Positions 39,308-42,947 of a stretch of 64,000 nucleotides of DNA are shown piece after piece (position 1 is the stretch's first letter; every line of letters starts with the position of its first letter). The notes beneath the pieces were generated by a model. The model worked only from the letters and a program-made list of their open reading frames with translations, ran no database searches and had not been told where the DNA came from. The DNA is from Candidatus Dadabacteria bacterium (GTDB taxonomy: Bacteria; Desulfobacterota_D; UBA1144; Nemesobacterales; Nemesobacteraceae). The translations under genes were made by a program, and so were the position numbers. Location: positions 1 to 64,000 of the forward strand of contig JAJDTG010000005.1 in the NCBI GenBank assembly GCA_022827275.1, in the 5' to 3' direction.

Positions 39308-39973
39308 ATGCAAGAGACAAAAGCCCTTATAGTTTCTCCGCACCCGGATGACCTTGAAATAGGCATGGGAGGAACTGCCTGCCTGCTTCTGGAAAAAGGT
39401 GTTAACGTGGTTTCCGTTGTCGTTACGGATGGAAGGAGAAGCGCGAACCCCCTTGGTATCTCGCAGGAAGAACTTGTGCAGACAAGGGAACGGGAAGTCA
39501 GGGCATCCTCAGAGATACTCGGGGTGGAAATTTCTCTTCTGGGGTTCTCCGATATGGAATCCGATTCGAACAAACGTGAATTCAGCTCCAGAATGGCGGA
39601 AATAATAACATATCTCCGCCCGGGGGAGATATACCTCCCGCATCCCGAAATTGACAAGCACAGAACCCACAGGGCGGTTTCCTGCCTGACACTTGATTGT
39701 CTTAAAGCGGCGGTTGAGGAGAGCCCTTTTGACTGCGAATGCTGGTTTTATGAGGTATGGACGCCTTTTCCTTCATACGATCGCATCGAGGATATAACGT
39801 CTTTTGCCGACCGCAAGCGTCGGGCGATCGAGGCGCACAGGAGTCAGACGGCCTACAAAGATTATACAGACGGCATAATGGGCCTTAACAGGTACAGGGG
39901 GGTCTTTCACGACACTGCGGACGGATTTGCGCCACTTTGGGCCGAGGTCTTCATAAAGCACGACTCCGGGTGA
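39308..39973 (+). CDS. PIG-L family N-acetylglucosaminyl deacetylase
   Basis: PIG-L (LmbE) enzymes are zinc hydrolases that remove acetyl groups from GlcNAc conjugates, for example in bacillithiol or mycothiol synthesis. The 221-residue protein starts ALIVSPHPDDLEIGMGGT, with the zinc motif HPDD. The second ligand region is PHPEIDKHRTHRAVS, and later KRRAIEAHRSQT is typical. The length fits BshB1-like members. The actual substrate is unknown; no glycosyltransferase lies nearby. Many such proteins act on antibiotics or glycans. Confidence 0.82.
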   Translation: MQETKALIVSPHPDDLEIGMGGTACLLLEKGVNVVSVVVTDGRRSANPLGISQEELVQTREREVRASSEILGVEISLLGFSDMESDSNKREFSSRMAEIITYLRPGEIYLPHPEIDKHRTHRAVSCLTLDCLKAAVEESPFDCECWFYEVWTPFPSYDRIEDITSFADRKRRAIEAHRSQTAYKDYTDGIMGLNRYRGVFHDTADGFAPLWAEVFIKHDSG

Positions 39974-39975
39974 TC

Positions 39976-40626
39976 TTACCTCGGAACATATTTTCTTTTC
40001 CTTGACCAGAGAAGCAGATCAAATTCATCAAGGCTGATTCCCAGCTCGTGAGCGGTTTCCGCCATAAGGCTTTCAGTTTCGAGGTATCTTTTTTTCGTCA
40101 GTGGATATTTCGTTTCGCCTATAACCCCCAGTTCGAAAAGGGATGCCAGGTTGTTTCGGTCAAGAATCGCATAGCCGGAGAATCCCAGATTCCTCAGAAA
40201 ATGGCTTGCCTGCATGTATCCGAGTCCTCTTATTCCAGGGTTTTCTGCGAAGAAATCCCTTCTTTCCACTCTGTCTTCAAAGGAGCCGACAAGTGATTTC
40301 AGGAGAAATCGGTGTTCTTCCTTAAGATATTCTCTGGTAAAAACAATATAGCGAGAAGCGTTCTCAGCGTATTTGTGAATTGGGCCAATGCATCCCAGCA
40401 GTTCGTTTCTTTCTCCGTCCACGAGTTTTTTCCCTATGGCGCTCATGCATTGGCCAGCTACTTTGGGCCCGACCCCGGAACTCAGTATGCAGAATGAAAG
40501 TTCACGGAAGATCTGGTGGTCGTCGGCCTCCTGAAAAGCCTGTTTGAATTCCAGAAGCCGGTTCTGTATCTCTTCTTTTTTAAGCTCGTAGAGTTCTAGA
40601 AGTTCCCGTCTTTCTTTTTCCGTCAT
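39976..40626 (-). CDS. Ogg2-type DNA glycosylase paralogue lacking the catalytic lysine
   Basis: The 216-residue protein has the helix-hairpin-helix glycosylase fold of archaeal-type Ogg2 enzymes: RDFFAENPGIRGLGYMQASHF, then GYAILDRNNL. In this family the lysine in the G-x-K-E-A-S-H-F motif forms the Schiff base; here that position is Met138 (YMQASHF). The partner aspartate, Asp156, remains 18 residues later. The DRH(I/Q)L motif is also changed to DRNNL. It stands next to a second copy that keeps the lysine. It may be a lyase-dead glycosylase, a damage sensor, or an inactive relic with intact frame. Confidence 0.75.
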   Translation of the reverse strand: MTEKERRELLELYELKKEEIQNRLLEFKQAFQEADDHQIFRELSFCILSSGVGPKVAGQCMSAIGKKLVDGERNELLGCIGPIHKYAENASRYIVFTREYLKEEHRFLLKSLVGSFEDRVERRDFFAENPGIRGLGYMQASHFLRNLGFSGYAILDRNNLASLFELGVIGETKYPLTKKRYLETESLMAETAHELGISLDEFDLLLWSRKRKYVPR

Positions 40627-40651
40627 ACGTGAGACCCTGTTGTCCGAGCCG

Positions 40652-41296
40652 TCATTTCAGTATCTCGCCTGTTTTCTCGCTCCAGAGAAACAGATCCATT
40701 TCATCGAAATCAAATCCGTTTTTCTCCGAGAATCTCTTAAATTTGTTTTCAATTTCAATGTATTTTGATCTTGAATGCGGTGCCTTGGCGGACTCCGTTA
40801 TGCCTAGTTCCAAGAGACACTGAAGTATGTGCTTGTCAAGAATCGCGTAGCCGTGAAAACCAACATTTCTTAAAAAATGGCTTGCTTCCTTGAAGCCAAG
40901 CCCCTTTATGTCCTTGTTAAGTGCGAAGAAGTCTCTTCGCTCTGCCGGGTCTTCAAAGGAGAGAAGAAGGGGCCTTAACTTGAGTCCATACCTGCTGGCC
41001 AAATAGTTTCTTGTGTGGACCACGTGTTTTGAGCGCACGTTTGGAAATCTGTAAACTCCCCGTAGTTTTGCCTTCAGTTCGTCCTCGCTTGCCCTCGGGA
41101 GTATGTTCCTTACGGCACTAAGCGCGCTCAGTCCCATTCTTGCGCTCGTTCCGGCCGTGAATATGCAGAAGACGAGTTCTTCGAAGATTACTTCTTCGGA
41201 GGCGTTTTTGATGATATTCTCAAATTCCCCGAGTTTCTTCTTTATTTCCGGGGCTTTGCGTGGAAGGTCTTTTCTTATTGACCGTACTGTCAGCAT
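40652..41296 (-). CDS. ogg: N-glycosylase/DNA lyase, Ogg2 family (catalytic residues intact)
   Basis: This 214-residue Ogg2-type enzyme would excise 8-oxoguanine and nick the abasic site. The catalytic pair is complete: Lys136 in GLGFKEASHF and Asp154 in AILDKHIL, spaced 18 residues apart as in the archaeal enzymes. A C-terminal DEMDLFLWSEKTGEILK segment matches the family end, including a terminal lysine. It lies 25 bases upstream of its paralogue on the same strand and 7 bases beyond the end of the LysM gene, so all three may be co-transcribed. Confidence 0.85.
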   Translation of the reverse strand: MLTVRSIRKDLPRKAPEIKKKLGEFENIIKNASEEVIFEELVFCIFTAGTSARMGLSALSAVRNILPRASEDELKAKLRGVYRFPNVRSKHVVHTRNYLASRYGLKLRPLLLSFEDPAERRDFFALNKDIKGLGFKEASHFLRNVGFHGYAILDKHILQCLLELGITESAKAPHSRSKYIEIENKFKRFSEKNGFDFDEMDLFLWSEKTGEILK

Positions 41297-41303
41297 CCGG
41301 GGA

Positions 41304-42947
41304 TTATTTGTAGATGACGAGGTTTCTTCCAGCGATCAGTGTGGTTGAGGACATGTTGTTCCATCTCTTGATCTGGGAAACCGACACCCTGTAACGAAGC
41401 GCCAGCTCGCTCAGTGTGTCGCCGGGGATTATCTTGTGGTGCACCTTCTTCGGAACGTCCCGCGGCACGTAAGTATAGGAAAGTCTTTGTGGAATGGAAA
41501 GGGTTTTTCCCGCTATTATAAGGGAGCCCTTGAGGTTGTTAGCCCTTTTTATCTCGTCGATTGAAGTTCCGTATTTTTTGGCCAAGACGTAAATATTTTC
41601 TCCGGGGCGGATCTTGTGCTTTACGTATATGACGTTCCCTCTTGTGGGTATTTTGAGCCTCTGCCCGGGGCGTATGATCGAACTCGAGAGGTTGTTAGCG
41701 TACTTGAGTTTCTCGACGGACGTTCCGAATTTCCTAGCTATCTTCCAGAGGCTGTCGTCGGTCCTTACCCTGTATCTTACGGGCTTTGTTCTGAAAGGAG
41801 TCTGAACATTCTTGAGTGTCTCCACTTCACTTTTGACGGCAATGAGTTTCTCCCCGTAGCCCTTGGGAACCTTAAGTTCATAGTTCTTTCCCGGGGGAGT
41901 GGAAAGTCCGACGAGTGAAGGATTGTATTTTGAGATCTCCTTGTATCCCATGTCGAGCAGGTTGGCGATTTCTGCGAGACTTTTTCTGGGCGGAACGCTC
42001 ACGGCTTCATAATCTTTCCCTGTTTCCGTAATCCTGAAACCGTATTTCTCAGGGTTTTGGGCTATTATCAAAGCGGCGTTGAACTTCGGTATGTAGTTTC
42101 TTGTTTCCCTGGGAAGCCTTTTTGATACTGTCCAGAAGTCGGTTGAACCTGTTCTCTTAATAGCCCTAGCCACTCTCTTCTCTCCGCAGTTGTAGGCGGC
42201 GAGTGCAAGTTCCCATGAACCGAATTCGTCAAACAACTTGCTGAGATATCTGGCCGCCGCCAAGGTCGATTTCTCAGCGTGCATTCTCTCATCTACCCAG
42301 TAGTTTATTTTCAGTCCGTATTTTAGTCCGGTCGGTCTTATGAATTGCCATAGACCGACGGCGTTCTTTTTTGAGACGGCACGGGGATTAAACCCGCTTT
42401 CTATAATAGGCAGATACGCGATTTCTTGGGGAACACCCTCGGAGCGGAGCGTTTCCCTGATATCCGGAAGGTATTTCCCGGAGCGTCTGAGAATCACGGC
42501 GAAATTTCCTTTTCCTTTTCCCGAAAACCGTCGGATATAGCGCTCAACCTTTGAGTTCCTTTTTACATCGAATTTTACGTCCTCGTAACTCTGCAAAGTG
42601 TCTTCGGGCTCGGCCTCTGAGATCTCTTCGGTTCCAGGCTCTGTCTGTTGGGCCAGCGGGGTTTGTTTCTGAGGACCAAGAAGTGATTGAGCTGCGGGGT
42701 TCGTATCTGTTTTTGCGGTTTCTTCAGCCTCTTTGCTTTCGTCTTCGTGACTCCGCAAAGTGTCTGTAGGTTCAGCTCCTGAGACTTCTTCGGTTAGATT
42801 GGTGGATTCTGCCTTTGCTTCTTGGGAGCGCTCAGGGAGTTGCGTCAGGCTTGATGCGGTGACGGATGCCCAAGGGAGAAAAACGGCGAGGAGAATACAA
42901 AGTATGACTGTTGAATTCATGTTAACTTTCGTCTGCGGAAACCCCAT
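41304..42947 (-). CDS. mltD: Membrane-bound lytic murein transglycosylase with three LysM domains (MltD type)
   Basis: MltD cleaves the glycan strands of peptidoglycan and forms 1,6-anhydro ends. The 547-residue protein has an N-terminal signal segment (VILCILLAVFLPWASVTA) and a low-complexity acidic linker. An SLT domain follows at about 165-290, with catalytic Glu183 in PIIESGFNPRAVS and the AVGLWQF motif. Three LysM modules sit at about 393-437, 445-490 and 502-546. The linker holds a duplicated 17-residue block (residues 53-69 and 107-123). An ATG at 42920 would also keep the signal peptide. It lacks a clear lipobox cysteine. Confidence 0.88.
   Translation of the reverse strand: MGFPQTKVNMNSTVILCILLAVFLPWASVTASSLTQLPERSQEAKAESTNLTEEVSGAEPTDTLRSHEDESKEAEETAKTDTNPAAQSLLGPQKQTPLAQQTEPGTEEISEAEPEDTLQSYEDVKFDVKRNSKVERYIRRFSGKGKGNFAVILRRSGKYLPDIRETLRSEGVPQEIAYLPIIESGFNPRAVSKKNAVGLWQFIRPTGLKYGLKINYWVDERMHAEKSTLAAARYLSKLFDEFGSWELALAAYNCGEKRVARAIKRTGSTDFWTVSKRLPRETRNYIPKFNAALIIAQNPEKYGFRITETGKDYEAVSVPPRKSLAEIANLLDMGYKEISKYNPSLVGLSTPPGKNYELKVPKGYGEKLIAVKSEVETLKNVQTPFRTKPVRYRVRTDDSLWKIARKFGTSVEKLKYANNLSSSIIRPGQRLKIPTRGNVIYVKHKIRPGENIYVLAKKYGTSIDEIKRANNLKGSLIIAGKTLSIPQRLSYTYVPRDVPKKVHHKIIPGDTLSELALRYRVSVSQIKRWNNMSSTTLIAGRNLVIYK
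42581..42633 (-). repeat. Imperfect direct repeat, copy A, in the transglycosylase linker
   Basis: This 53-base block recurs at 42743-42795, 162 bases away and in the same frame. About 41 of 53 bases agree by hand count. It encodes EEISEAEPEDTLQSYED, a local duplication within the gene. Confidence 0.6.
42743..42795 (-). repeat. Imperfect direct repeat, copy B, in the transglycosylase linker
   Basis: Partner of the block at 42581-42633, encoding EEVSGAEPTDTLRSHED. The shift of 54 codons keeps the frame, so the linker grew by duplication. Confidence 0.6.

Follow-up and report, generated by a model that had tools for sequence, protein, structure and literature searches.

A conserved Ogg2 paralogue without the catalytic lysine, adjacent to canonical Ogg2, in Candidatus Dadabacteria

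Two neighbouring genes in a Candidatus Dadabacteria genome encode members of the same DNA glycosylase family, and one of them has methionine at the position of the lysine on which the Schiff-base chemistry of the family depends. This raises the question of whether the lysine-less copy is a genuine, conserved protein, and what such a protein might do beside its canonical sister.

Two adjacent Ogg2 genes

The window analysed here is a stretch of 64,000 nucleotides of contig JAJDTG010000005.1. Its source is a bacterium of the Candidatus Dadabacteria, and the family in question is known as archaeal Ogg2. The two copies, A and B, and the residues discussed below are located in Table 1. Transcription on the minus strand runs from the MltD-like gene through A to B, with intergenic gaps of 7 and 25 bases, and the reading frames of both copies are intact. 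The original prediction, made from the bare sequence, of a tandem Ogg2 pair with Met in place of the catalytic Lys in one member is borne out by the Pfam and NCBIfam matches and by the intact frames, and the residues it named (K136 and D154 in A, M138 and D156 in B, with an altered DRH motif in B) agree with the sequence. It called the Lys-bearing copy downstream, which is right in plus-strand coordinates only; in transcription A is the upstream gene and the first to be transcribed.

Table 1. Positions in the window of the genes and diagnostic residues of the Ogg2 locus.
Feature	Position	Strand	Description	Basis
MltD-like lytic transglycosylase with LysM repeats	41304..42947	-	Next gene upstream of A; neighbour conserved on the A side	
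Ogg2 copy A	40652..41296	-	214 aa, C-terminus ...TGEILK; canonical Ogg2 8-oxoguanine DNA glycosylase/AP lyase	PF22175, 164 bits; NF002305 above curated cut-off; K136, D154, DKH, C-terminal Lys
Ogg2 copy B	39976..40626	-	216 aa, C-terminus ...RKYVPR; Lys-less Ogg2 paralogue	PF22175, 127 bits; AlphaFold2 pLDDT 96; Foldseek
PIG-L family deacetylase	39308..39973	+	Convergent with B; neighbour conserved on the B side	
Copy A Lys136 codon	40889..40891	-	Catalytic Schiff-base Lys, in the HhH hairpin (MjaOgg K129)	Alignment to 3FHF/3KNT
Copy A Asp154 codon	40835..40837	-	Catalytic Asp (MjaOgg D147)	Alignment to 3FHF/3KNT
Copy B wedge loop S50-P54	40465..40479	-	SSGVGP; TAGTSA in A	
Copy B Lys85-Tyr86	40369..40374	-	Arg-Phe in A; R84/F85, the opposite-base contacts, in MjaOgg	Roles from PMC3397491
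Copy B Met138 codon (ATG)	40213..40215	-	At catalytic Lys position	
Copy B Gln139	40210..40212	-	Glu in A	Gln in 35/35 B
Copy B Asp156	40159..40161	-	GPD-loop catalytic Asp, kept	35/35 B
Copy B Asn158	40153..40155	-	Replaces phosphate-contacting His of D-x-H	34/35 B
Copy B C-terminal Pro215-Arg216	39979..39984	-	Position of the 8-oxoG-sensing C-terminal Lys of Ogg2	Role from PMC3397491

Both proteins match the Ogg-HhH family PF22175 (cut-off 27), and against NF002305, the N-glycosylase/DNA lyase model, A lies above the curated equivalog cut-off (183 bits) and B below it (148.7). They share 40% identity over 195 residues that align without a gap. Copy A has all of the Ogg2 sequence features that were checked, namely the domain, the Lys, the Asp, the D-x-H motif and the C-terminal Lys. 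The Ogg2 fold of B is a confident prediction, with a mean pLDDT of 96.1 in the AlphaFold2 model. A Foldseek search with this model returned seven significant matches, all of them Ogg2 structures (best 3KNT, 3FHF and 3N0U) with TM values of 0.80–0.87, and the MjaOgg-DNA complex ranked first.

Residues that distinguish the two copies

Residue correspondences between A, B and the known Ogg2 enzymes were taken from sequence alignment. The catalytic Asp, the Trp and Asp equivalent to residues 198 and 194 of MjaOgg, and the His of the ASHF motif are unchanged in A and B. Among B sequences no variation is seen at the catalytic Asp, the base-stacking Trp or the base-contacting Asp, the glycines of the HhH hairpin are also kept, and Trp207, Asp203 and His142 of B are retained residues of the Ogg2 8-oxoG pocket. 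The columns that are fixed differently, in the direction A to B, are A48 to S50, S51 to G53 and A52 to P54 in the wedge loop; R83 to K85, F84 to Y86 and N86 to E88 in the opposite-base region; K136 to M, T, V or L, E137 to Q139 and H156 to N158 at the catalytic Lys, its neighbour and the phosphate-contacting His; and L213 to P215 at the C-terminus. In the window the catalytic Asp motif thus reads D-K-H in A and D-R-N in B, and the proteins end in EILK and YVPR, respectively. All 41 A sequences end in Lys, while the last residue of B is Arg (16), Lys (11), Val (5), Leu (1) or Ile (1), so that 23 of 34 are not Lys.

By alignment, these fixed differences map onto the parts of Ogg2 known to contact the lesion, the opposite base and the phosphate. 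In MjaOgg, Arg84 touches the opposite base and Phe85 lies beside it, and the His of Ogg2 makes a phosphate contact that moves with Trp198 (PMC3397491). The carboxylate of the C-terminal Lys is the 8-oxoG sensor, and its removal abolishes 8-oxoG excision with lyase activity retained (PMC3397491).

An alternative lysine supplying the missing chemistry was considered and set aside. No column is Lys across all 35 B sequences, and the only B-specific Lys that is nearly invariant, K85 (34 of 35), sits at the opposite-base site and not at the sugar; K179, which is Lys in 32 of 35, is structurally still conceivable.

Conservation and selection

Within the order to which the window's genome belongs, 36 genomes carry copy B: 12 of the 14 in the genus (that of the window included), the only further genome in the family, and 23 from the rest of the order. 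The Lys column can be read in 35 of these, having been lost at a contig end in the remaining genome (G037), and is occupied by Thr (14), Met (13), Val (5) or Leu (3), never by Lys; all 41 A sequences have Lys there. The Ogg2 family was sampled outside the order across bacterial families, and archaeal relatives were sought by an indexed scan with two peptide patterns. Lys is found in all 58 sequences from outside the order, among them every Ogg2 found in other bacterial families, and in the one archaeal relative returned by the scan (LSGIGLKQASHFLRN). Family f8, another family of the class with genomes of about 1 Mb, has a single strong Ogg2 match with Lys in each of 14 genomes, and no out-of-order genome among the 387 surveyed has a second strong match.

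Judged from these alignments, the conserved trait of B is the lack of Lys, and Met is one of several tolerated residues. The conservation of Met138 itself, which had been singled out for checking, holds within the same family and breaks down elsewhere, where Thr, Val or Leu takes its place. Lys in close relatives, which would have marked Met138 as a local error, occurs in none of the 35 readable B orthologues, and the sequence gives good support to the view of B as a paralogue that is conserved yet lyase-dead, there being no invariant replacement Lys. Purifying selection acts on B: within the genus its median pairwise dN/dS over 12 sequences is 0.15, against 0.11 over 14 sequences of A. An alignment of 15 B sequences has 41 invariant positions.

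Copy A is found in nearly all of these Dadabacteria genomes. In one genome (G010) the order MltD-A-PIG-L-GatB is kept with B cleanly missing, in another (G003) A is followed by other genes and B is absent at the locus, and family f6 has A only. Since it has been cleanly lost in some relatives, B is dispensable and not essential.

In the species-level genome collection, relatives of B are mostly labelled Candidatus Dadabacteria, and the others, which carry the labels Deltaproteobacteria, Desulfobacterota, Thermodesulfobacteriota or Bacterium HR37, are members of the same order. A whole A-B pair, with B at 88% identity, was also seen in a bin labelled Candidatus Poribacteria (L125, JAGWBU010000215.1), which is probably a misbinned Dadabacteria contig.

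Duplication and gene conversion

The gene order around the copies differs between families. In the f8 genome L089 a single Ogg2 copy lies between MltD and PIG-L/GatB, and families f1, f5 and f7 mostly have MltD-A-B-(PIG-L)-GatB. In family f3 A and B are unlinked, with A adjoining MltD and B adjoining PIG-L or GatB, as expected from a rearrangement that broke between the copies. Because of these arrangements, A and B would have arisen by one tandem duplication, in place, of a single Ogg2 gene in the ancestor of one Candidatus Dadabacteria order. In the tree, B forms one group with a support of 80/95 that leans on the diagnostic columns; strict monophyly of B was not obtained from the background sequence, two changes being needed once those columns were removed, and for this reason it is synteny and the shared residues that support a single origin. 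Gene conversion mixing A and B is the likely reason for the weakened monophyly.

Such conversion can be followed in HRbin37 (L049), a single metagenome-assembled genome on which this pattern is based. The DNA of its A and B is nearly identical through most of the final 125 codons (windows of 0.96, 0.88, 0.99 and 1.00) and again at codons of about 25–49. The copies differ in an island that spans the wedge loop to the opposite-base contacts, in a second where AAG GAA in A faces ACT CAG in B (K/T and E/Q) with older synonymous differences around it, and in a third at the C-terminus (EILK versus HIPR). This is best explained by selection for two functions, the islands having been kept while conversion homogenised the rest. 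The B copy of HRbin37 has Thr at the Lys site but retains D-K-H, with the His common to both copies, and the Asn of D-x-N is therefore not indispensable to B.

The only Ogg2 found in genome G015 (L048; C67, 1999-2670, minus strand) has mixed A and B features. Its Lys is kept but is followed by Gln (KQASHFLRN), its wedge (CILTSNAGA) includes part of the B wedge loop, and the opposite-base site reads RY. The gene may have been left over from the transition, or recombination may have produced it. Two unrelated genes on the minus strand (1296-1898 and 969-1256), one of which resembles a TPR-type repeat protein, separate this Ogg2 from GatB in the place where one would expect B and PIG-L.

Comparison with known glycosylases

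Copy B resembles the Ogg2 enzymes MjaOgg (3FHF/3KNT), SsoOgg (3FHG) and TmaOgg (3N0U) in family sequence, predicted fold, catalytic Asp, base-stacking Trp, base-contacting Asp and HhH, and differs from them in the absence of the catalytic Lys, in D-x-N for D-x-H, in its wedge loop and opposite-base residues, and in its C-terminal position, where the Lys sensor that is strictly conserved in those enzymes is not conserved in B. The characterised Ogg enzymes are all described as bifunctional (PMC3397491).

Within the HhH superfamily the Lys marks the bifunctional enzymes, and its site is occupied by Trp in AlkA, Tyr in MIG and Ser in MutY (PMC11754123). When B is aligned with MutY of E. coli and MIG of M. 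thermautotrophicus, all three have a non-Lys nucleophile site and D-x-N, MutY having Ser and DGN and MIG having Tyr and DAN, while Nth and Ogg have Lys and D-x-H. The Asn in MutY, Asn146, next to Asp144, is itself catalytic and forms bonds with the DNA backbone and with the catalytic Asp (PMC12871665). The combination in B suggests convergence on a monofunctional active site. MutY and MIG nevertheless belong to another HhH subfamily, and B has neither the cysteine-rich (Fe-S) tail nor the MutY C-terminal domain. They also have a Glu in the helix before the wedge, which in MutY is the general acid, and the aligned residue in B is Cys46, as in A. No match of B to the MutY family was obtained, its sole NCBIfam match at E ≤ 0.001 being NF002305 and not TIGR01084. 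At most, then, B may function like MutY or MIG, and it is not a member of that family.

The same Lys is missing, with the Asp and the lesion-binding fold kept as in B, from hOGG1 K249Q and K249H, MjaOgg K129Q (3KNT) and AGOG K142Q. These are laboratory mutants, however, whereas B represents a natural, lineage-wide change in which neighbouring residues are altered as well (E to Q and H to N). Base excision is dead in hOGG1 K249Q, and K249H acts at low pH as a monofunctional glycosylase that excises 8-oxoG without lyase activity (PMC12318605). NTHL1 K220Q binds damage without excising it (PMC13022620), and AGOG requires the equivalent Lys (PMC9638937). Given that Lys to Gln alone kills excision by hOGG1 and NTHL1 and that AGOG needs its Lys, B would need compensating changes.

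Proposed activity of copy B

Our preferred explanation, which we put at about an even chance, is that B is an Ogg2 paralogue kept as a monofunctional HhH DNA glycosylase of changed specificity. In such an enzyme the retained HhH would serve to bind and kink DNA, a base would be flipped against the retained Trp207, and Asp156 would act with water to break the N-glycosidic bond; without the Lys there would be no Schiff base and no strand cut, and the abasic site would pass to endonuclease IV. The retained Asp, the D-x-N motif and the altered lesion-reading parts favour a protein that acts on another base or pairing. Since the C-terminal sensor, the wedge loop and the opposite-base contacts have all changed, we infer that the substrate is probably not 8-oxoG handled in the canonical Ogg2 manner but a different base, damaged or mispaired, with A remaining the 8-oxoG enzyme. 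Cys46 in place of the MutY/MIG Glu, the D-K-H of HRbin37 B and the dispensability of B all count against this explanation.

The chief rival, possible if a good deal less probable, is that B is a non-catalytic pseudoenzyme that binds lesions or mismatches and marks damage or assists A by protecting a lesion or handing it over. The behaviour of NTHL1 K220Q and hOGG1 K249Q is in line with this, as are the lack of the MutY/MIG Glu, the tandem arrangement with A in most families and the free variation among T, M, V and L at the Lys site, as if any residue other than Lys sufficed. A pure binder, however, would have no need of a catalytic Asp that is invariant in all 35 sequences; the unlinked copies of f3 imply that co-transcription with A is not required, and the 8-oxoG sensor and opposite-base contacts have changed as well. 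That B still excises 8-oxoG, now as a monofunctional enzyme sharing the labour with A according to context (opposite base, single strand or speed), we regard as improbable. The retained pocket residues Trp207, Asp203 and His142, the R/F to K/Y change at the opposite-base contacts and the activity of hOGG1 K249H (PMC12318605) are compatible with it, but the terminal Lys has given way to Arg, Val, Leu or Ile, preceded by Pro, in 23 of 34 B sequences, truncation of the tail abolishes 8-oxoG excision by Ogg2 (PMC3397491), and hOGG1 K249Q is inactive. A decaying duplicate or pseudogene, with which the absences in G010, G003 and f6 would fit, and a sequencing or assembly error behind Met138 are refuted for practical purposes by the 36 assemblies that carry B, the lack of Lys in every readable one, frames intact save at contig ends, the dN/dS of 0.15 and the 41 invariant positions.

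Neither a Lys-less Ogg2 nor base excision repair in Dadabacteria was the subject of any paper found in the open-licence literature searched, and B is a real, conserved Lys-less Ogg2 paralogue previously undescribed there. The role of the Ogg Lys in base excision as against strand cutting is still debated (PMC3397491), and a natural, conserved Lys-less lineage paired with a canonical sister offers a ready-made test of it. Natural intermediates, such as HRbin37 B and the single Ogg2 of G015, make it possible to test in which order the changes came. If active, B would show how a bifunctional enzyme for oxidised bases becomes monofunctional.

Repair genes and genomic neighbours

The scan for MutY covered 35 genomes of the class and one outside it, 36 in all, and detected none above the family cut-off; an Fpg-type protein was found in one of 35 only. 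The classic bacterial GO system thus seems largely missing in the scanned Dadabacteria. With no MutY and almost no Fpg in this survey, A is probably the main 8-oxoG glycosylase. Endonuclease IV and UDG-family proteins are present in most of the genomes scanned.

With MutY missing, a part in mismatch repair is an attractive idea for B, though it falls short of proof. In its most specific form, the proposal would be that in one order of bacteria an Ogg2 has become a mismatch-type glycosylase that is monofunctional and resembles MutY and MIG in its active site (non-Lys, D-x-N), and that this enzyme may serve in the repair of adenine or base mismatches; we think this rather unlikely. Families without B also lack MutY, and the idea of B as a required stand-in for MutY is weakened by f6 and f8, which have neither. 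The neighbouring genes gave no functional clue: MltD-like, PIG-L and GatB are housekeeping or transport genes in an ancestral order, and the f3 neighbours (DUF4396, a Na/Ca exchanger and Zip) are likewise housekeeping or transport genes.

The genome of the window also encodes two Nth-like proteins and one MagIII-like protein. A third Ogg2-like HhH glycosylase, very divergent and with the Lys present, occurs in one genome of the genus (L108; G005, C9:142595-143104), where it is a protein of 239 aa (GLGPKQSSLFLRN...VLDVHVL).
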